Shown here piece by piece: positions 1-8,343 of a stretch of DNA of 32,128 nucleotides (its first letter is position 1; each line of letters opens with the position of its first letter). The translations under genes were made by a program, and so were the position numbers. The notes below the pieces were generated by a model. The model was not told the origin of the DNA. It searched no databases and saw only the letters and a list, made by a program, of their open reading frames with translations. Source of the DNA: Verrucomicrobiota bacterium (GTDB lineage Bacteria > Verrucomicrobiota > Verrucomicrobiia > Limisphaerales > UBA11358); NCBI GenBank assembly GCA_028873125.1, contig JAGWMQ010000027.1:1-32128 (forward strand), in the 5' to 3' direction.

Positions 1-26
1 ACGCTTTTCATTTCCCCGGATTTTAA

Positions 27-326
27 CGGCGGGCATTCCAAAACGGCGAATTCCAGACCTGCCGCCGTGCGCCGATGACAAACGGAAGTGATTTTCGACA
101 AGTCGAGGTCGTGCCGCCATTCCGTGCCGTCGTCGGTTTGAACCGAGCGGGGCGCATCGTGAACCAGCACATCGGCTTTACAGATAAGGCAGAATTTGAG
201 AAGGAAACCATGCCGGTCTTGGGCGCGATGCGAATTCGCCATCCCAAGAAAACCAAAGGCCAAAACTACAATGTGACGACCGACGCCGGCCAGTGCTGCG
301 ACGGCGGGAATGGAGGATGTTGCTGA
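27..326 (+). pseudogene. thioredoxin-like C-terminal fragment
   Basis: The open frame lies between a stop at 24-26 and a TGA at 324-326; an ATG occurs at 75. The segment VVGLNRAGRIVNQHIGFTDKAEFEKE resembles the last beta strands of the thioredoxin fold (fold-type pattern: hydrophobic strand, xDxxGxIVxxxxGF, then an alpha helix). The catalytic CxxC region is not in the readable frame, so either the 5' part is lost or frameshifted or it lies beyond the window edge. The tail is Cys/Gly-rich (CCDGGNGGCC) and could bind metal. The TGA overlaps the ATG of the following PiT gene (TGATG), which indicates translational coupling and that this frame was once genuinely translated. The assignment rests on a short match from memory; it could be another small redox or metal-binding protein. 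Confidence 0.35.
312..316 (+). promoter_or_regulatory. ribosome binding site deciding the PiT start
   Basis: GGAGG lies 9 nt before the ATG at 326, the best-spaced start for the PiT fragment. It supports the start at 326 (MFTIVIF) rather than 317 or 293. Confidence 0.6.
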
Positions 327-955
327 TGTTCACGATTGTGATTTTCCTGGCCGCTTGCTTCGTGGCTCATGCCAACGGTGCAAATGACAACTTCAAAGGC
401 GTCGCCAGCCTGTTTGGCAGCCGGACATGCAACTATCGTGCGGCCATCGGGTGGGCAATTATCTGTGACCGTGGACGATCCAGCAGTTTGCGCGCAGCGT
501 TACACCGGCGCAGTTCTGGGCGTCAACGCGGGGAAGTTGCTGGATGGACTGCACTTCTTGAGTGCGGGTGCGGCAAGTTTTGCGCGCGGGCTGAACGATA
601 CGCCCGAAATGGTCGCGTTGCTGCTGGTGGCCGGCACCCTCGACATTCGCTGGGGCTTCGTGGCGGTGGCGGCGGCCATTGCCGTCGGTGGGCTGTTGAA
701 TGCAAAAAGAGTCGCCGAGACGATGAGCCACAAAATCACCGGCATGAATCCCGGACAAGGCTTCGCCGCCAATCTATCCACCGCGTTGCTGGTCACGACG
801 GCCAGCTTTAACGGCCTGCCCGTGAGCACGACGCACGTGAGCGTCGGCTCATTGCTCGGCATGGGCGTTGTCACACGGCAGGCGAAATGGCAAGCCGTGC
901 TCGGCATTGTCGCTTCGTGGGTGATTACACTGCCTTGCGGCGCGTTATTTGCGGG
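326..955 (+). pseudogene. PiT-family inorganic phosphate transporter, internally deleted and frameshifted
   Basis: PiT permeases import phosphate through the inner membrane. The N-terminal part (326 to about 455) reads MFTIVIFLAACFVAHANGAN followed by DNFKGVASLFGS, the first PiT signature GANDxxK. The frame then shifts by one, and from about 459 to 955 the C-terminal half follows: FARGLNDTPEMVALLLVAG, the NLSTALLVTTASFNG helix and the second signature GLPVSTTHVSVGSLLGMG. The middle of the protein, roughly 130-150 residues by my memory of the compact PiT subfamily, is missing at the junction near 455-462, together with the reading frame. The extreme C-terminus is also lost, because ArsS-like sequence begins at 956. 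It is almost certainly non-functional. Such PiT genes often sit with arsenosugar or arsenic genes, which fits the ArsS fragment next door. An assembly chimera is an alternative explanation. Confidence 0.8.
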
Positions 956-1108
956 AGCAAGCTGCCGCCGACTCAAGCAGAACTTGAAGCCGCCTACAAG
1001 CGGGAACTGCGAAAGCGTTACAGCATTGAGTTCACGGGTTTGTTCACCATTACGAACCAACCCATCGCGCGCTTCGCCGAAAATTTGCGGCAACACGGCA
1101 ATCAGACG
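956..1108 (+). pseudogene. arsS: internal fragment of arsenosugar radical-SAM protein (ArsS-like)
   Basis: About 50 residues in one frame, beginning SKLPPTQAELEAAYKRELRK and continuing with YSIEFTGLFTITNQPIARFAENL, match the middle part of the ArsS/DUF3641 radical-SAM proteins (family pattern LPPxQxxLExDYKxEL...FxxLxTxTNMPIxRF). ArsS-type enzymes take part in arsenosugar synthesis. The radical-SAM CxxxCxxC loop and the C-terminal domain are absent on both sides. The piece is joined directly to the truncated end of the PiT gene in a different frame, so it is debris and not a gene. The identification comes from remembered family sequence and is fairly specific because of the TITNQPIARF segment. 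Confidence 0.65.
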
Positions 1109-1110
1109 GC

Positions 1111-1232
1111 GGCCATTTTGCCACGCTCCAAGCCGGAAACATGCGCGTGGCGCTGTGGGATAAGCATTGGGATTGGGAAGCGCCACGAGCAAAAGACGAA
1201 CGTCAATTTGGGCTTTGGTCAATTGAGTGTGT
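1111..1232 (+). pseudogene. C-terminal tail of an unidentified protein, interrupted at its stop by a MITE
   Basis: A third reading frame gives GHFATLQAGNMRVALWDKHW followed by DWEAPRAKDERQFGLWSIE. I do not recognise the family. The composition (Trp-rich, charged, non-repetitive) looks like real protein sequence. The 110-bp MITE at 1230-1339 sits exactly where the frame would have ended: removing the element and one copy of the 9-bp duplication restores TCA ATT GAG TGA, so the ancestral protein ended ...LWSIE. In the present sequence the frame runs on through the element to TAA at 1294-1296. No start is visible upstream in this frame. Confidence 0.45.
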
Positions 1233-1339
1233 GCCTATGCACATGACTCAACCTGGCTCAATCGGACCCAACTCATTGTGGTTTGGCTTGACGTAACTTG
1301 CCAAGGTGTTGTGGTTGGTTGAGTCATGTGCATAGCCCT
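1230..1339. mobile_element. 110-bp MITE with terminal inverted repeats
   Basis: Perfect 19-bp inverted repeats, ctatgcacatgactcaacc at 1235-1253 and its reverse complement at 1317-1335, lie near the ends of a 110-bp unit. The unit is flanked on each side by the identical 9-bp sequence aattgagtg (1221-1229 and 1340-1348), which has the form of a target-site duplication. The 63-bp interior has no coding capacity, so the element must be moved by a transposase encoded elsewhere. Nine-base duplications are known for IS1 and several IS4-type elements, but the tip sequence does not let me name a family. It inserted at the stop codon of a gene remnant and immediately upstream of the MerC-like gene. 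Confidence 0.75.
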
Positions 1340-1382
1340 AATTGAGTGAAACAATCATGCAGAAATGACGCGCGCAATCTGA

Positions 1383-1976
1383 ATGAAAATGAAACGAGCA
1401 CTTGCAGCTTTGGACAAACTTGGAGCAGCCGGAGCCATTCTTGCGGCAGCGGCTGCGCCCTGTTGTTTTCCGTTGCCCGCGATGGTCGGGACGGCGCTCG
1501 GCTTGGGCGCTTTGCAGTCATGGCTTGGCTACATGGATTATGCCATTCAGGTCTTTGCCGGGATTTCTGTCGTTGGCAATATATTCGCTTTCTGCCAGCA
1601 TCGGCGCGCCTGGCCGCTGGGGGTCGGACTGACAAGTGTGGCGCTTGTTTTCTTCGCATTTTATGTCAGCTATCAGGTCGCGTTTATTTATACGGGGTTG
1701 GCTGGTTTGGCAGTGGCGGCGGTCTGGAACATCGTTGCCAAGCGGCGGGCGGGTTCAAGTTGTAGGCCGGTTGAATTGCAATCCACCGTCGCCTGTCCGC
1801 AATGCGGCCATCAGAAGACGGAGACAATGCCGACCGATGCGTGCCTCTATTTTTACGAGTGTGAGAATTGTCACGCCACTCTGCGTCCCAAGCCCGGTGA
1901 CTGTTGCGTGTTTTGTTCCTACGGTTCGGTCAAATGTCCACCCATGCAATCGGGAGTTGGTTGCTGCGCGACATGA
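1383..1976 (+). CDS. MerC-like membrane protein fused to a GDCCVxC zinc-ribbon-like domain
   Basis: A 197-residue protein. Residues 1-120 form about four hydrophobic segments, the first carrying the paired cysteines of mercury transporters (AAAAAPCCFP, Cys27-Cys28), as in MerC/MerT-type inner-membrane carriers that pass Hg(II) or other soft metals. Residues 130-197 form a soluble domain with CPQC (138-141), CENC (160-163), then GDCCVFC (172-178) and further Cys at 185, 194 and 195. This is the GDCCVxC domain, usually a separate small protein beside mer/ars genes. The likely role is import or handling of thiophilic metal ions, with the cytosolic Cys-rich tail as acceptor; this is inferred from the family. 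The start at 1383 gives the tandem MKMK beginning; no strong ribosome site is seen, and the MITE 44 bp upstream may have replaced the original leader. No merA, merP or merR is visible. Confidence 0.75.
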   Translation: MKMKRALAALDKLGAAGAILAAAAAPCCFPLPAMVGTALGLGALQSWLGYMDYAIQVFAGISVVGNIFAFCQHRRAWPLGVGLTSVALVFFAFYVSYQVAFIYTGLAGLAVAAVWNIVAKRRAGSSCRPVELQSTVACPQCGHQKTETMPTDACLYFYECENCHATLRPKPGDCCVFCSYGSVKCPPMQSGVGCCAT

Positions 1977-2077
1977 GTTGCGGCGAGCAAATTGATTCAA
2001 GGGAAAATGTTGCGAAAATTTGCGCCTGTGGTGTAATGTCCGGCGAATGTTTCATCTAACCTTGAAACCATAACGAT

Positions 2078-4549
2078 ATGACCAAAGACCCCGTTTGCGG
2101 CATGACAGTGGACGAAACATCCGCGTTGCGCGCCGAACGGGACGGACAGACTTTTTATTTTTGCAGCAACCACTGCCGACAAAAGTTTCTTGCCCAATCC
2201 GCGCCCAATAATCCGATTATTCCCGTAACCACCAGCGGCGCACACCCGCACACGGCCTCTGAAGAACATGGCCATGTCCACATGCAGCATGGTCATGCCG
2301 AAGCAAAACCGTCGCCAGCAGCGAAGTATTTTTGTCCGATGTGTCCTGGCGTGGAATCGGACCAGCCGGGCGATTGTCCAAAGTGCGGAATGCCGCTGGA
2401 ACGGAATCCGGCCTGGGTTGCTCCGGCGGGGCGCAACACCATTTACACCTGCCCGATGCACCCGGAAATCGAGCAGGATCATCCGGGCGATTGCCCGAAG
2501 TGCGGAATGCCACTGGAACCCAAAACTGTTTCTGCCGAGCCGGAAGACGACAGCGAAATCCGCGCGCTCACCCGCAAATTCTGGATCAGCCTGGTCCTGA
2601 CGGCACCCATCCTGTTTCTGGCGATGGGTAAATGGATTCCCGGCGTGCCAATCGAACAGTGGATTCCCAAGCCGGCCTCCCAATGGTTGGAATTTCTGTT
2701 GAGCACGCCGGTGGTGCTGTGGGCGGGTGGGATGTTTTTCGACAAGGCGTGGCGTTCGTTGAAGACGCGCCAGTTGAACATGTTCACGCTCATCGCCACC
2801 GGCGTCGGCGCGGCTTATCTTTACAGCGTCGTTGCCGTCGTCGCTCCCGGCATTTTCCCCCCGTCGTTTCAGCGCCACGGCGAAGTGGGGCTTTATTTTG
2901 AGGCGGCGGCGGTCATCACGGTGCTGGTGCTGTTGGGACAGATGCTCGAAGCCCGGGCGCGCAGCCGCACTGGGCAGGCAATCAAGGCTTTGCTTGGCCT
3001 GGCGGCCAAGACCGCACATCGCGTTCGGAACGGTCAAGAAGAAGATGTGCCGGTGGATGAATTGCAAAAAGGTGACGAGTTGCGCGTCCGGCCCGGCGAG
3101 AAAATTCCCATTGACGGTGTGATTATCGAGGGCCGGAGCAACGTGGACGAGGCGATGATCACCGGCGAGCCGATGCCGGTCGCCAAAGGCGTGCAGGACG
3201 CGGTCGTCGGCGCAACCGTCAACCAGACCGGGACCTTTTTGATGCGGGCGGAGAAAATCGGCTCCGAAACACTGCTCGCCCAGATTGTGCGGATGGTGGC
3301 GGAAGCCCAACGCAGCCGCGCGCCCATCCAGAAACTGGCGGACAATGTGGCGGGATATTTTGTTCCGGCCGTCATCGGCATCGCCCTTGTCACATTTGCG
3401 GTCTGGTCCGTTTGGGGGCCGGCCCCGGCGATGGCTTTCGCGTTGGTCAACGCGGTGTCGGTGCTGATCATCGCGTGTCCGTGCGCGCTGGGGCTGGCAA
3501 CGCCGATGTCCATCATGGTTGGCGTGGAGCGAGGCGCGCAATCCGGCATTCTCATCAAAAACGCGGAAGCGATTGAAGTAACGGAAAAAATCACACACCT
3601 TTTGACGGACAAGACCGGGACGCTGACCGCTGGAAAACCGAGAGTCACAAGCCACAAGGTCGCTTCAGGCGAGGAACGGGATGCGGTCTTAAGTTTGGCG
3701 GCTTCGCTTGAACAAAACAGCGAACACCCGCTGGCGCGGGCGATTGTGGATGAGGCCAAGGAAAAGAAAATCATTTTGTCTCCGGTGAGGGATTTCGAGT
3801 CCACGACCGGCGGCGGCGTGGCGGGAAAAATCGGCGACAAAATCGTGCGCGTCGGAAAGGAGAAATTCTTACGCGAGTCCGACGTGGCAATTCCCGATGA
3901 CTTGAAACAGGCATCGCAGCAACTTCAGGAAAAGGCGCAGACGGTGGTCTGGGTCGCGGTAAATCAACAGGCGGTCGGCATCATCGGCATTGCCGATCCC
4001 ATCAAAGTGACGACGCCCGCCGCCATCCGGGCGCTCCACGACATGGGATTAAAAGTCTTGATGTGCACCGGCGACAATCGCAAAACCGCCGAGGCGGTGG
4101 GACGCGAGCTGGACATTGACGAAGTGCGGGCGGAGTTGACCCCACAAGGCAAACATGAGTTGGTCAAAAAATTGAAGGCCGAAGGCAAAATTGTGGCGAT
4201 GGCGGGAGATGGCATCAATGACGCGCCGGCGCTGGCCGAAGCGCATGTGGGCATCGCAATGGGCACCGGAACGGACGTGGCCATCCAAAGTGCCGGCATC
4301 ACTTTGGTCAAAGGCGACCTTCAAGGCATCGTCAAGGCGTTGTCCCTGAGCCGGCGGGTGATGAAGAACATCCGGCAGAATTTGTTTTTCGCTTTCGTCT
4401 ATAACGCGCTGGGAGTGCCGGTGGCGGCAGGCATTCTATATCCGTTGGCCGGTTTGTTGCTCAACCCAATGATTGCCGGCGCGGCGATGAGTTTCAGTTC
4501 ACTTTCGGTGGTCAGCAACGCGCTGCGATTGCGCAAAGTGAAGCTGTGA
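2078..4549 (+). CDS. copA: Cu+-exporting P1B-type ATPase with YHS and two heavy-metal-binding domains
   Basis: An 823-residue ATPase that exports Cu+ (possibly Ag+) from the cytoplasm. Order of parts: YHS domain (1-40, DPVCGM and FYFCSNHC); His-rich linker (about 56-73, [10 protein letters not shown]); two Cys-rich heavy-metal-binding domains with paired CPM(C/H)P and [10 protein letters not shown] motifs (85-107 and 125-147); membrane segments; actuator domain with ITGEPMPV; membrane metal site CPC (467-469); phosphorylation motif DKTGT (Asp511); hinge GDGINDAPA; and last two helices with YN...P and [11 protein letters not shown], the P1B-1 (Cu+/Ag+) signature. It lacks the classical GMTCxxC ferredoxin-like HMA domain; the N-terminal modules replace it. 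The start is the ATG at 2078, directly followed by the conserved MTKDPVCGM. It lies 101 bp after the MerC-like gene. No copper-responsive regulator is visible. Confidence 0.95.
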
Positions 4550-4660
4550 TGGAACCGAACAGCAGAATGTTTCCATCTCGTGGTGGAAATAGTTTGGTGG
4601 CGTGAGCCTTCCGGCCCGCTGGTGTTCTGATGGCTCTGGTGTGCGTGGCGCGAACGCGGA

Positions 4661-5161
4661 TTGTGGCACGCGCTCTTGGCGGGAACAATCGCGGCATTGC
4701 CAATGGCGGCGTTGCCACTGGCTTTCTTTCACGGAACCGCCTTTCGTCAACTCGTGACCAACAGACCCGTTGTTTTGGTCGTGTTGCGGGGCCGGCCGGG
4801 CTATCAATGCCCAATTTGCACGCGCCAAGTGCATGATTTCGTCACTCACGCCGATGAGTTCGCCGCACAAAATGCGCAGGTGTTGATGGTTTATCCCGGT
4901 CCGGCGGAAAACCTCAAGGCGCGCGCCCAGGAATTTCTTCAGAACAAACAGTGGCCGAAAGATTTCCTGTTTGTCATTGACCTCGATTACAAGTTCACCA
5001 CGGGCTATGGCCTGCGCTGGGACGCCAAGAACGAAACGGCGTGTCCCTCGACTTTCAGCATAGACACAAAGGGCAAGGTGCGCTTCGCGCACGTCAGCAA
5101 ATCGCACGGAGATCGTGTCGGCGCAACCGCGGCGTTGGATGCGTTGCAAACTTTGAAGTGA
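4661..5161 (+). CDS. redoxin (peroxiredoxin-like, AhpC/TSA type) with CxxC
   Basis: A 166-residue protein from a TTG start, the first plausible start after an in-frame stop at 4628-4630. The core reads RPVVLVVLRGRPGYQCPICT (Cys50 and Cys53), then VLMVYPGPAENLKARAQEFL, DYKFTTGYGLRWDA and CPSTFSIDTKGKVRFAHVSK, matching the thioredoxin-fold AhpC/TSA redoxins. It probably reduces peroxides or acts as a thiol-disulfide oxidoreductase. Residues 1-22 are hydrophobic and could serve as a signal or anchor. The normal N-terminal part of the fold (GxxAPxFxLxD, then xxGxxVxLxxF) is not recognisable, so the 5' end may be rearranged. The stop overlaps the next start (GTGA). A protective role beside a copper ATPase is plausible but inferred. 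Confidence 0.65.
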   Translation: MWHALLAGTIAALPMAALPLAFFHGTAFRQLVTNRPVVLVVLRGRPGYQCPICTRQVHDFVTHADEFAAQNAQVLMVYPGPAENLKARAQEFLQNKQWPKDFLFVIDLDYKFTTGYGLRWDAKNETACPSTFSIDTKGKVRFAHVSKSHGDRVGATAALDALQTLK

Positions 5162-5850
5162 ACCGGCACATTTGCGAAATCTTGAAGCCGGTTGGATTGC
5201 TCTGGCTGCTGGTCTGCGTCGCGCCGGCCGCGCGTGACGGAACATTTGCACTGCCGCTGACTCAAACCAATGGCTGGCAGTTTCTGCAATACCGGAAAAT
5301 CCCACCGAACACATTCCGTTGCATCTCGGCGGGCCTTGTCATCGGGGGCACCAACTCCGCTGCGCCTGCCGTATTCCCGTTGACCAATGAATTGACTATC
5401 ACCGAACTGCGCGTGAGCGGGAAGATTTCCGGTTCATTGAAAGTCCCGCCGGACAAGCAGGGTGCAAATGAATTTGATGACTATACCTTGCGCATGGGAT
5501 TGGTCGAGCCGGGGACGCGCACGTTAAGTTGGTGGGAGAAAATGACGGCCGCCGATTGGGTCAAAAAGCTGTTTGCGCTCGCGCCGCCCGGCACCGGCAT
5601 CAGAAAAATTCACTTCTTCAATGTCGGCACCGACGCGGCCCAGATAGGACGCAGCCAGGTTTGTTCGAGCGACGGCCTGATGGAGCAAGCGGTAGTGGCC
5701 GTGCCGGATGCCGACGGACATTTCACCTTCACCAATCGTTTCGCCAAGCCGGTCAATGTGGTCGCACTCTGGATTTCCAGCGACGGCGACGATACCCATT
5801 CACCGTATGCCGTCACTCTCAACAGAGTGGAACTTGAAACGACGCCATAA
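5158..5850 (+). CDS. secreted protein of unknown function, DUF3047-like
   Basis: From the GTG at 5158, which overlaps the TGA of the redoxin gene (GTGA), the product is about 230 residues and starts with a good signal peptide (KPVGLLWLLVCVAPAA). Further upstream in-frame starts lie inside the redoxin gene and give non-hydrophobic N-termini, so I prefer 5158. The mature part has features that resemble DUF3047: a start GWQFLQYRKIPPNTF, a middle FDDYTLRMGLV and an end VVALWISSDGDDTHSPYAVT followed by LNRVEL. The resemblance is weak and remembered, so the family name is tentative and the function is unknown. The overlap implies co-translation with the redoxin; both are probably exported, perhaps acting together in periplasmic stress defence (inference). 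Confidence 0.55.
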   Translation: MNRHICEILKPVGLLWLLVCVAPAARDGTFALPLTQTNGWQFLQYRKIPPNTFRCISAGLVIGGTNSAAPAVFPLTNELTITELRVSGKISGSLKVPPDKQGANEFDDYTLRMGLVEPGTRTLSWWEKMTAADWVKKLFALAPPGTGIRKIHFFNVGTDAAQIGRSQVCSSDGLMEQAVVAVPDADGHFTFTNRFAKPVNVVALWISSDGDDTHSPYAVTLNRVELETTP

Positions 5851-5960
5851 CTTTTCAGACCCGGGGTTTTTGAAATAATTCCCAAGCCGGGGAGTCTTAC
5901 CTTTGATGAATGCCATCGGATGTGCGACCCACAGCCTCGCCGGAGAAATAGCTTTTCGGT

Positions 5961-6479
5961 TCAGGCCGGAGGCGAATGGCTCAACACCACCCGGAACAGA
6001 TGCGGCCGTTTCCGCCGTCCTTCCACCATGACCCGAGCGCCCTGGCCAAAGTCCACCTGCGCCTCCGTGCCCGGCGCCACTTCCATCCGCACGAACGCTT
6101 CGGGTTGCGTCCGCCGCAAGTGCCGCACAAACCGTTTGACCGCTTGATAACTGCCGGCAAAACCGTGCATGACCACCAAATGCTGATAGATCCGTTGGGC
6201 GCTCAAGCCCGCGGCCACCGCCGCCTCAATCTGCGGCGACAACGGCAAACACATACTTTGCCGGCCAGCGGTCGAGCCGGGGGTCGAAATGGCTGGTTTT
6301 GCCCCATCCTTGGAGTTGACGCCGGGGGTCTAAATGGCCGGTTTTGACTGCGCCAGCCGCAGATGCCGGCCCACCGTCTCGCGGTGGACGTCCAGTTCAC
6401 GCGCAATCCGCCGGTGCGACCAGCCACGCGAGGCCAAAGTTAAAATCGAATGTTGCAGACTCACGTTGAGTTCGTTCAT
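5961..6479 (-). pseudogene. istA: IS21-family transposase IstA, N-terminal remnant
   Basis: Read from the ATG at 6479, the frame begins MNELNVSLQHSILTLASRGW, then SHRRIARELDVHRETVGRHLRL, the helix-turn-helix start of IS21 IstA. An in-frame TAG (6332-6330) follows the first KPAI segment, where a Ser codon (TCG) is expected. The same frame continues with a second KPAISTPGS, then CLPLSPQIEAAVAAGLSAQR, QAVKRFVRHLRR and EAQVDFGQGARVMVEGRRKR. Homology stops at LFRVVLSHS (about 5973) and a TGA follows at 5961. The DDE catalytic core and IstB are absent, so the element is dead: one nonsense mutation plus a 3' truncation that joins it to unrelated sequence near 5970. Confidence 0.85.
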
Positions 6480-6532
6480 CGCGTCCTTGTGCAACATCCG
6501 TCGCACACAACGCAATCTCGTCCTCAAAGTGG

Positions 6533-6580
6533 GCGGTTTTCATTCGACCCTCACTGGCTGGTTTTGAGTGACCGCTGACA
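6533..6580 (-). mobile_element. terminal region of the IS21-like element
   Basis: Read on the minus strand from 6580, the sequence starts TGTCAGCGGTCACTC and contains two similar blocks, aaaaccagccagtgag and aaaaccgcccac, ahead of the istA start. IS21 elements begin with 5'-TGT and carry repeated terminal transposase-binding blocks, so this is the likely intact end beside the istA remnant. The opposite end is not seen. Confidence 0.5.
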
Positions 6581-6707
6581 TTTCAATAAAGGAGATTCGC
6601 CGGTGCAAGTTGCCGAACCGCGTGCATTGCCATTTCCGCATTGTGAGGTAACAGGGCAAGGTGGAATACGGTCTTGAACTTTCATCGAAGCCAGTTCATT
6701 CATTTTT

Positions 6708-6752
6708 CAATTGCAAGCTGTTTGCACCAGTATTGCAAACTATTTGCAATTG
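6708..6752. repeat. nested TTGCAA dyad
   Basis: Outer arms caattgcaa (6708-6716) and ttgcaattg (6744-6752) enclose inner arms gtttgca (6720-6726) and tgcaaac (6734-6740), with 3-nt unpaired steps and a 7-nt centre. TTGCAA occurs three times here and once more at 7058-7063. It could be an operator or a recombination-protein binding site. Confidence 0.5.
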
Positions 6753-6920
6753 TCAAATCCATGCCCCAACCGATTAAGAGCGGTCATCAAGAAAATCCAG
6801 CGAGCGCGACTAAAAAGTCCGAAAATGTTTCGCGGGGTATCACAGCGTTTTGACCACCCGCCAAAAGGAACTGCCGGGGCGTCTGGCTGGCGCGGCGCGG
6901 CCAAAAAGGGACTCTTTTTC

Positions 6921-7016
6921 CTGACACAGAACGACACAGAAAACGCCGAAATCCTGGCTGTGTCAGGAACGTGTCAGACGGCGGTTTCGCACCCAATCCT
7001 GACACATTTCGACACG
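6921..7016. repeat. six GACAC motifs in three phased pairs
   Basis: GACAC occurs at 6923, 6933, 7001 and 7011 on the plus strand and at 6960-6964 and 6971-6975 on the minus strand. Spacing within the pairs is 10, 11 and 10 bp, about one helical turn. Three of the sites extend to cctGACACA. The orientation by pairs is direct, inverted, direct. The arrangement resembles arm-type sites of a recombinase or a multimeric regulator site. Confidence 0.5.
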
Positions 7017-7144
7017 CCCTTTTCTACCCATAGGCGCGCATAGACTCCAGAAAGTGCTTGCAAACACTTGCGTCTTGGTGTATCCCTGCGGGAAACTATG
7101 ACACAAGAAAGGCATTTATGAGTAACTGAGAAAAAAACCAAAGT

Positions 7145-7172
7145 GTGGGTTCAAATCCCAGCCCCGCAACCA
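7145..7172 (+). tRNA. 3' end of an initiator tRNA-fMet gene (partial; putative att site)
   Basis: The segment reads as a T arm with the loop TTCAAAT (TGGG paired with CCCA), then the acceptor strand CCCCGCA, discriminator A and encoded CCA at 7170-7172. CCCCGCAACCA is the typical 3' end of bacterial initiator tRNA. No D arm, anticodon arm or CGCGGGG 5' acceptor strand exists upstream at the right distance. The outermost T-stem pair (7145 with 7161, G-G) fails while everything from 7146 on fits, as if the copied block begins there. A 3' fragment of this kind is what remains downstream when an element integrates into a tRNA gene; sequence to the right is then the original chromosome. Confidence 0.7.
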
Positions 7173-7248
7173 ATTTCACGGCGCTGCGGACCTCCGGCCG
7201 GGGCGTTTATTTTCTTCAAAAATTCCGGCCAACCCCTACCTTCGGCGC

Positions 7249-8343
7249 GTGCGCACCGTTTCCGTTCAACTGGGCCGCCGCAGTTACTCCGTCAAAATCG
7301 CGCCGGGTTTGCTGGGGCAGATGGGCCGCCACTGCAAGCGGCTCAAGGCCGCCGGCCGTTGCGCCATCATCACGGACGCCAACGCCGGCAGATATTTTGC
7401 CAGGACGGCCTTTCAGGCGCTCGCCCACGCGGGCTTCTCGCCGGTGTTGATCAGGGTTCCGGCGGGAGAAACGTCCAAGAGTCTGAGGACCGTCCAAACC
7501 TGCTACGACCGGTTGGCCGAACACCGGTTCGAACGGAATTCGTTCGTGGTCGCGCTGGGCGGCGGGGTGGTCGGGGATTTGGCCGGGTTCGTGGCCGCCA
7601 CCTATCTGCGCGGCATCCCGTTCGTCCAGGTCCCGACGACGCTGCTGGCGCAGGTGGACAGCTCCGTCGGCGGCAAGACCGGCGTCAATTTGCGCGCCGG
7701 CAAAAATCTCGTCGGCGCCTTTTATCAGCCGCGGCTGGTGCTGTGCGATCTGGACACGCTGCGGACTCTGCCGGAACGCGAATTTCGCGCCGGCCTGGCC
7801 GAAGTCATCAAATACGGCATCATCCGCGACGCGGAATTGTTCGCGCGACTCGAACGCGATCTGGGGAAAATTCTGCAGCGTGAGGAGAGGGTTCTGGCGC
7901 CGGTGATCGCGCGCTGCTGCGAAATCAAGGCCGAGGTCGTGAGCCGGGACGAAACGGAAGGCGGAGTCCGGGCCATCCTGAACTTCGGCCACACCCTCGG
8001 CCACGCCATCGAAAACAGTTCCGGCTACGGAAAACTGCTTCACGGCGAGGCCATTTCCATCGGCCAGGTGGCCGCCGCCCGGCTGTCTCAGAAACTTCTT
8101 GGGCTGTCCGGGCGCGAGGTGGAACGCATTGAACGGCTGTTCCGGCGGGCGGGGTTGCCGACGCGAATCAGGCTGAACCCCGCGCGCCGGAAAAGATTGT
8201 TCGCCGCCATGCGCCTCGACAAGAAGGTCCGCGCCGGTGAAATCCGGTTTGTTTTGGCCGAAGCCCTCGGCCGGGTCCGCTGGGGGCAAGCCGTGCCACG
8301 GGCGTTGGTCGAAAAGGTTTTGGCCGCAGATGAACACGGATGA
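7249..8343 (+). CDS. aroB: 3-dehydroquinate synthase
   Basis: Converts DAHP to 3-dehydroquinate, the second step of the shikimate pathway, in the cytosol with NAD+ and a divalent metal. The 364-residue length is normal. Visible motifs are the NAD-binding segment [20 protein letters not shown], then [19 protein letters not shown] and [10 protein letters not shown], the metal-site segments [10 protein letters not shown] and [10 protein letters not shown], and the late His in [10 protein letters not shown]. The start is the GTG at 7249, 76 bp after the tRNA fragment. The last codons (AADEHG) run into the left arm of an inverted repeat shared with the gap before the next gene. It is the first apparently core gene right of the island scar. 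Its promoter is not obvious and may have been altered by the upstream insertion. Confidence 0.95.

Follow-up and report, generated by a model that had tools for sequence, protein, structure and literature searches.

A tRNA-fMet 3' fragment lies between metal genes and aroB

We analyzed a stretch of 32,128 nucleotides (the window) on contig C60 of a draft Verrucomicrobiota genome from the Limisphaerales (G000; 3.74 Mb, 205 contigs, 94% complete). Read directly, positions 7145–7172 carry a T loop, a T stem, the CCCCGCA acceptor strand, the discriminator A and CCA. A sequence-only reading had taken these bases for the 3' fragment of a tRNA-fMet gene, and the fragment was confirmed; ARAGORN called no tRNA gene in the 32-kb window. 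The 26-mer at 7147–7172 occurs once in the window and did not arise in 100 shuffles, even when up to 3 mismatches were allowed. An Rfam search of this region returned chance matches only, as a 27-nt stretch does not suffice for the tRNA model. A plasmid search returned similarity to aroB only.

The two sides of the fragment differ, as expected from the earlier proposal of an island on the left and chromosome on the right. To the left (1–7145), GC content is lower (57.2% versus 62.0%), and Pfam and NCBIfam searches identified a PHO4 transporter remnant, a MerC-like/GDCCVxC protein, a copper-type P1B ATPase and a SelL-related redox protein. This side, the candidate right end of an island of at least 7.1 kb, also contains an IS21-family transposase remnant (5961–6254, minus strand; partial NF033546 match, E 1e-18). 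To the right, aroB (7249–8343, plus strand) starts with GTG 76 bp past the CCA end and would be the first chromosomal gene beyond the island.

The fragment matches the only initiator tRNA gene found in the genome

We found only one other site in the 3.74-Mb draft that matches with at most 3 mismatches, C107:21246–21270, and it lies within an intact tRNA-Met(CAT) gene (C107:21194–21270). This tRNA has C1/A72, CCCCGCAACCA and the anticodon stem CAAGG/CCTTG; C1/A72 together with CCCCGCAACCA is the signature of an initiator tRNA. No second initiator tRNA (fMet) gene turned up in the draft genome. Window positions 7146–7176 (plus strand), the T stem to CCA plus ATTT, are identical to the C107 fMet 3' end over 31 bp, with the left boundary 27 nt before the CCA end. 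The sequence-only reading thus had the bases right but gave 28 of them, slightly short of the identity block. It had also placed the crossover edge where the outer T-stem pair fails, and indeed a G7145/G mismatch lies one base outside the block.

The order on C107 is mlaD-mlaF-mlaE (minus strand), tRNA-fMet (plus strand) and then, right behind the tRNA, a broken tyrosine integrase gene; the mla names come from sequence reading and tblastn to relatives. The integrase survives in pieces: an N-terminal part in frame with the tRNA is followed, after a frameshift, by a part with a weak Pfam match to a SAM-like core-binding domain, and the remainder is lost at a DruA-domain gene. At the end of C107 (L003:19458–20000) lies a second, unrelated-looking tyrosine recombinase gene on the minus strand; its C-terminal half is present and runs off the contig.

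An intact fMet gene with an identical 3' end and an adjoining integrase was what the sequence-only reading had suggested looking for, together with a relative in which fMet runs straight into aroB. Such a relative exists: in G024, which does not carry the island region, 72 bp separate intact fMet from aroB. G045 and G022 have the order mlaE, fMet, aroB on one contig, G042 has fMet and aroB on one contig, and all three carry small insertions between fMet and aroB. The fMet-aroB order is absent from most other aroB loci examined with 1.5-kb flanks and is confined to a subclade. The empty site of G024 and the gene order of these relatives therefore indicate that an ancestral mlaE-fMet-aroB arrangement was split in G000, with aroB the old right neighbor of the tRNA gene. 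The GC contrast supports this split, as C107 repeats it (57.5% on the island side, 62.9% on the chromosome side). The partner copy, its integrase and the empty site thus support the earlier view of the fragment as the scar of an integrated island, and the junctions support C107 as the attL end and the window as the attR end, with 7146–7176 as the attR core. The two junctions of G000 sit on different contigs; complete relatives, G237 and G082 among them, have both ends on one contiguous element.

A family of integrases behind tRNA 3' ends

Relatives of the C107 integrase were found in 60 of the 245 Limisphaerales genomes sampled. At most of the 31 loci that we fetched, the integrase begins directly behind the 3' end of a tRNA or tmRNA gene. 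The targets are mostly tRNA-Leu(GAG), and also Arg(CCG), Val, Lys, Gln, Pro, Leu(TAG) and tmRNA. The attL/attR pairs of other genomes mostly place the left edge of the core 26–29 nt before the CCA end (27 in the window). The integrases of the relatives match Phage_integrase as their only Pfam family; Phage_integr_3 (PF16795) matched neither these integrases nor the C107 pieces.

Among the 25 tRNA/tmRNA genes beside integrases at the 31 loci, fMet is the target once, on C107 itself; in addition, a remnant of a similar integrase lies behind the same fMet allele in G011 (C79, L147). Choice of the initiator tRNA, which the sequence-only reading had called notable, is therefore rare within the family but not unique more widely. 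Islands associated with metV in E. coli are known insertions at an initiator tRNA gene; they share the target with the present island and differ in host and integrase.

The N-terminus of the G011 remnant (L147:874–1290) looks very similar to that of a G000 integrase at tRNA-Arg (L272:2239–3672), which suggests that closely related integrases switched their target tRNA. The latter belongs to a second island of the family in G000 (C174, L272), inserted at tRNA-Arg(CCG) with an intact integrase frame; a further copy of the tRNA 3' end lies on C168 (L271).

An apparent integrase start precedes the fragment

The attR arms of many relatives share the pattern GAAAGGCAAC-N-ATG-AGC-AA, in which the spacing from the ATG to the T-arm GGTTC is exactly 30 nt. 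When we searched the 245 genomes for this pattern and allowed 29 spacings, all 9 places found had the 30-nt spacing and lay before a tRNA 3' end. The window box reads GAAAGGCATTTATGAGTAA, and its ATG, at 7118, is 30 nt before the GGT at 7148. A profile built from nine attR arms of other species matched the window at 7093–7147 with 18.2 bits (next match on either strand of the 32 kb, −7.9), directly in front of the scar. The signature identified the attR end on C60, a contig without an integrase.

This stretch (7107–7147, plus strand) has the layout of a gene start: an RBS-like GAAAGG (7107–7112), the ATG (7118–7120) and a frame that leads into the GGT at 7148. Codon 4 is TGA (7127–7129; MSN*), and the frame is that of the N-terminal part of the C107 integrase. 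Judged by its homology to the arms of relatives, the DNA before the scar is the dead, cut-off 5' end of the island's own integrase gene. The sequence-only reading was right about a fragment at the far end of an island; it had missed the integrase start directly before it.

The integrase reading frame crosses attP

On the attL side, the integrase frame stays open across the tRNA 3' end at each of the 25 loci where it could be measured, and these fall into two phases. The first phase (21 loci) has 0 in-frame stops, versus 11 and 63 in the other two frames; the second comprises the remaining 4. The distances from CCA to a conserved block are 77, 80, 83, 86 and 89 in the first phase and 81 and 84 in the second, differing by multiples of 3 within each phase. 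When attR arm, core and attL arm were joined as they would be in the circle, one open frame ran from the attR-side ATG into the integrase in 11/11 undecayed pairs (G146, G117, G184, G082, G173, G058, G092, G258, G237, G019 and G264). Three of these, G019, G264 and G258, had been fetched to test the prediction of an open frame, and all three were open. In G237, G019 and G264, which belong to the second phase, the frame begins differently, with MNGNET, and this start lies in that phase too. The decayed pairs (G232 and the window) have stops in the joined frame.

Further downstream, the conserved VKFP block carries a start codon in 24 of the 25 loci (19 GTG, 4 ATG, 1 TTG), and the remaining locus has an ATG one codon earlier. 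The C174 integrase has a good GAGGAG before this start codon. An internal start is therefore likely, and the integrase need not be silent when integrated. In the N-terminal extension we detected no third-codon excess (0.43/0.40/0.45), so that clear conservation of its amino acids is lacking: what is maintained is the frame rather than the residues.

These observations could also describe a passive scar, in which the integrase is translated only from the internal GTG/ATG and the attR-arm motif is a DNA-binding site. The nearly universal start codons at the VKFP block, the GAGGAG of C174 and the extension devoid of a codon-position signature would fit, and a fixed 30-nt spacing in one subgroup could suit a binding site. 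However, the frame upstream of the internal start is open across the core in every measurable locus, its indels preserve the frame, the attR starts follow the two phases and all undecayed joined frames are open. A pure DNA site would need neither an open frame, nor phase-matched starts, nor frame-preserving indels, and we regard the passive scar as unlikely.

We favor a different reading with good confidence: the fragment is the attR of an integrative island in the single tRNA-fMet gene, and the integrase frame of the family crosses attP, so that integration severs its 5' end. A tyrosine integrase would have recombined a tRNA 3'-end core of about 30 bp on a circular element with the same core in the fMet gene, rebuilding the tRNA on the left (C107) and leaving the gene's own 3' end beside aroB (window). 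In the circle, the attR arm would provide the start codon and the RBS-like site, followed by about ten codons; the tRNA 3' end would supply the next codons (GGT TCA AAT ... = GSNP...), and the body of the integrase would lie on the attL arm. With the frame running across attP, integration would sever the 5' end of the long gene form, and the two parts would be reunited on excision. In the C107 integrase family, integration thus appears to part the integrase gene from its main start signal. The sequence evidence consists of the junctions, the empty site, the continuity of the frame in relatives and the homology of the window arm. In G000 itself the island is probably fixed, given the nonsense codon in the window and the frameshifted, truncated body on C107.

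What the cut does to the protein is less certain. In the model that we favor, the long form would be made from the circle only and may differ in function from the short form, which could be made in both states; the conserved downstream GTG/ATG may serve as the start of the short form after integration, with expression perhaps driven by the tRNA promoter, as reported for ICEKp1. Whether integration acts as a switch, with a full-length integrase bearing a tRNA-encoded N-terminal peptide made from the circle only and a shorter form when integrated, we consider evenly balanced.

Probable arm-type repeats at the two ends, and the cargo

Left of the severed start, the window contains seven GACAC/GTGTC repeats (6923–7104, plus strand), many of them about one helical turn apart. 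Their density is 20.2 per kb in the cluster versus 1.3 per kb elsewhere in the window (Poisson p 5e-7). A 16-mer within this region, CGACACAGAAAACGCC (6932–6947), is common to the window arm and the C107 arm. From their density and the shared 16-mer, the repeats are probably arm-type sites of the integrase that tie both island ends together.

The repeats bear on the possibility that the C107 attL and the window attR come from two islands stacked at one fMet gene, in which case the metal region and the C107 integrase would not belong to one element. C107 and C60 are unjoined, part of a second recombinase lies at the end of C107, and several relatives have more than one fMet 3' fragment. However, only one such fragment was found in the draft genome, both arms have the 16-mer and the GACAC repeats, and the window arm fits the attR type that goes with the C107 integrase family. 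We therefore give stacked islands slightly less weight than the passive scar.

We rejected an origin of the scar from a GIY-YIG/tRNA-copy cassette of the kind found between fMet and aroB in G042 and G045. Such cassettes occupy this very place in close relatives, yet G000 has no GIY-YIG match, the window fragment has neither the TCCCGC-GCGGGA hairpin nor the AGCTCGTCAGGCTCATAA stretch, and it begins at the T stem and matches the attR arm of the integrase family; this origin is very improbable. Chance resemblance to a tRNA, or a simple partial duplication without site-specific integration, has only the short length of the fragment in its favor and is hardly credible beside the 31-bp identity, the integrase at the intact copy, the empty site and the conserved arm.

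On the reading of one island with its attR in the window, the metal genes are probably, though not certainly, its original cargo rather than later arrivals with the IS debris. Complete relatives are about 7–10 kb long and carry, besides the integrase, primase/helicase genes (G082, G173, G237) or terminase genes (G193); by their gene content they resemble phage satellites and may be of the PICI/P4 kind, which are small elements with integrase, primase/helicase and packaging genes. No primase/helicase or packaging genes were found on the island side of the window. The complete relative in G193 (C3, L267:803–7540; about 7 kb) has the integrase and the small and large terminase genes at opposite ends, a phage-satellite-like layout.

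Comparison with known systems

Genomic islands at tRNA ends are common. Islander catalogues those in tRNA genes with tyrosine integrases, and notes that the Mx8 and SSV integrases extend across attP (PMC4383910). Like the islands of that catalogue (PMC4383910), the present island has an intact tRNA beside its integrase, a 3' fragment at the opposite end, a T-arm core and an integrase reading away from the tRNA; it differs in its initiator tRNA target and in the integrase frame across attP.

In the 'suicidal' integrases of the SSV type, attP lies inside the gene and integration splits it into 5' and 3' parts; a review calls them exclusively archaeal (PMC8371274). The C107 family likewise has attP inside the integrase frame. 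However, the host is bacterial, only the start codon, about ten codons and the core are cut off, and an internal start is conserved. With no match to PF16795, the family would work like an SSV integrase while standing outside the SSV family. Myxococcus phage Mx8 also has attP inside int, and integration swaps the C-terminus of its integrase (PMC6070905, PMC4701971). Both systems are bacterial and in both integration alters the predicted product, but Mx8 changes the C-terminus and the C107 family the N-terminus and start codon. In ICEclc and ICEKp1, int lies beside the tRNA, and only circularization brings it together with a promoter from the opposite end; int expression from the tRNA promoter has been reported for ICEKp1 (PMC13023037). 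The joined signal there is a promoter, whereas here it would be a start codon with in-frame coding sequence.

The bacterial self-cutting cases that we found (Mx8 and ICEs integrated in rumA) affect the C-terminus, and removal of the start codon would be a new variant. If true, the switch would mean that bacteria arrived independently at a counterpart of the archaeal suicidal integrases. Loss of the start codon and a protein part supplied by the tRNA would make it possible to test directly in bacteria how the integrase product is linked to the integration state, and the attR signature can be used to find element ends in fragmented metagenome assemblies. We found no paper on split integrases of Limisphaerales in the open-licence literature, where absence is weak evidence.

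Other elements at tRNA ends

In relatives, a gene for a GIY-YIG nuclease of about 90 aa lies directly behind tRNA genes, frequently with a partial copy of that tRNA after it. In the copy, a GC-rich hairpin (for example TCCCGC-NNN-GCGGGA) takes the place of the anticodon arm, and the T arm, acceptor strand and CCA are kept. Some of these cassettes form tandem arrays. They occur at fMet (L116:1526–1873, L118, L121, L196–L199, L201–L206), at tRNA-Asn (L209–L211, L213, L214, L217, L218), at Lys (L215, L219, L222) and at elongator Met (L216, L224). In G042 (L116), the stop codon of the nuclease is the TAA of the copied CATAA. A search of the open-licence literature, in which absence is weak evidence, turned up no paper on these cassettes, and the unit is possibly an undescribed tRNA-end mobile cassette.

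The fMet gene also carries other insertions. In G012 (C20, L152:2737–13609), 10.8 kb lie between intact fMet and a longer fMet 3' copy of about 44 nt, with apparent type III restriction-modification genes, a different tyrosine integrase and then a GIY-YIG gene. Further fMet 3' fragments were found in G019, G021, G053 and G063, which suggests that fMet is an insertion hotspot in this genus.
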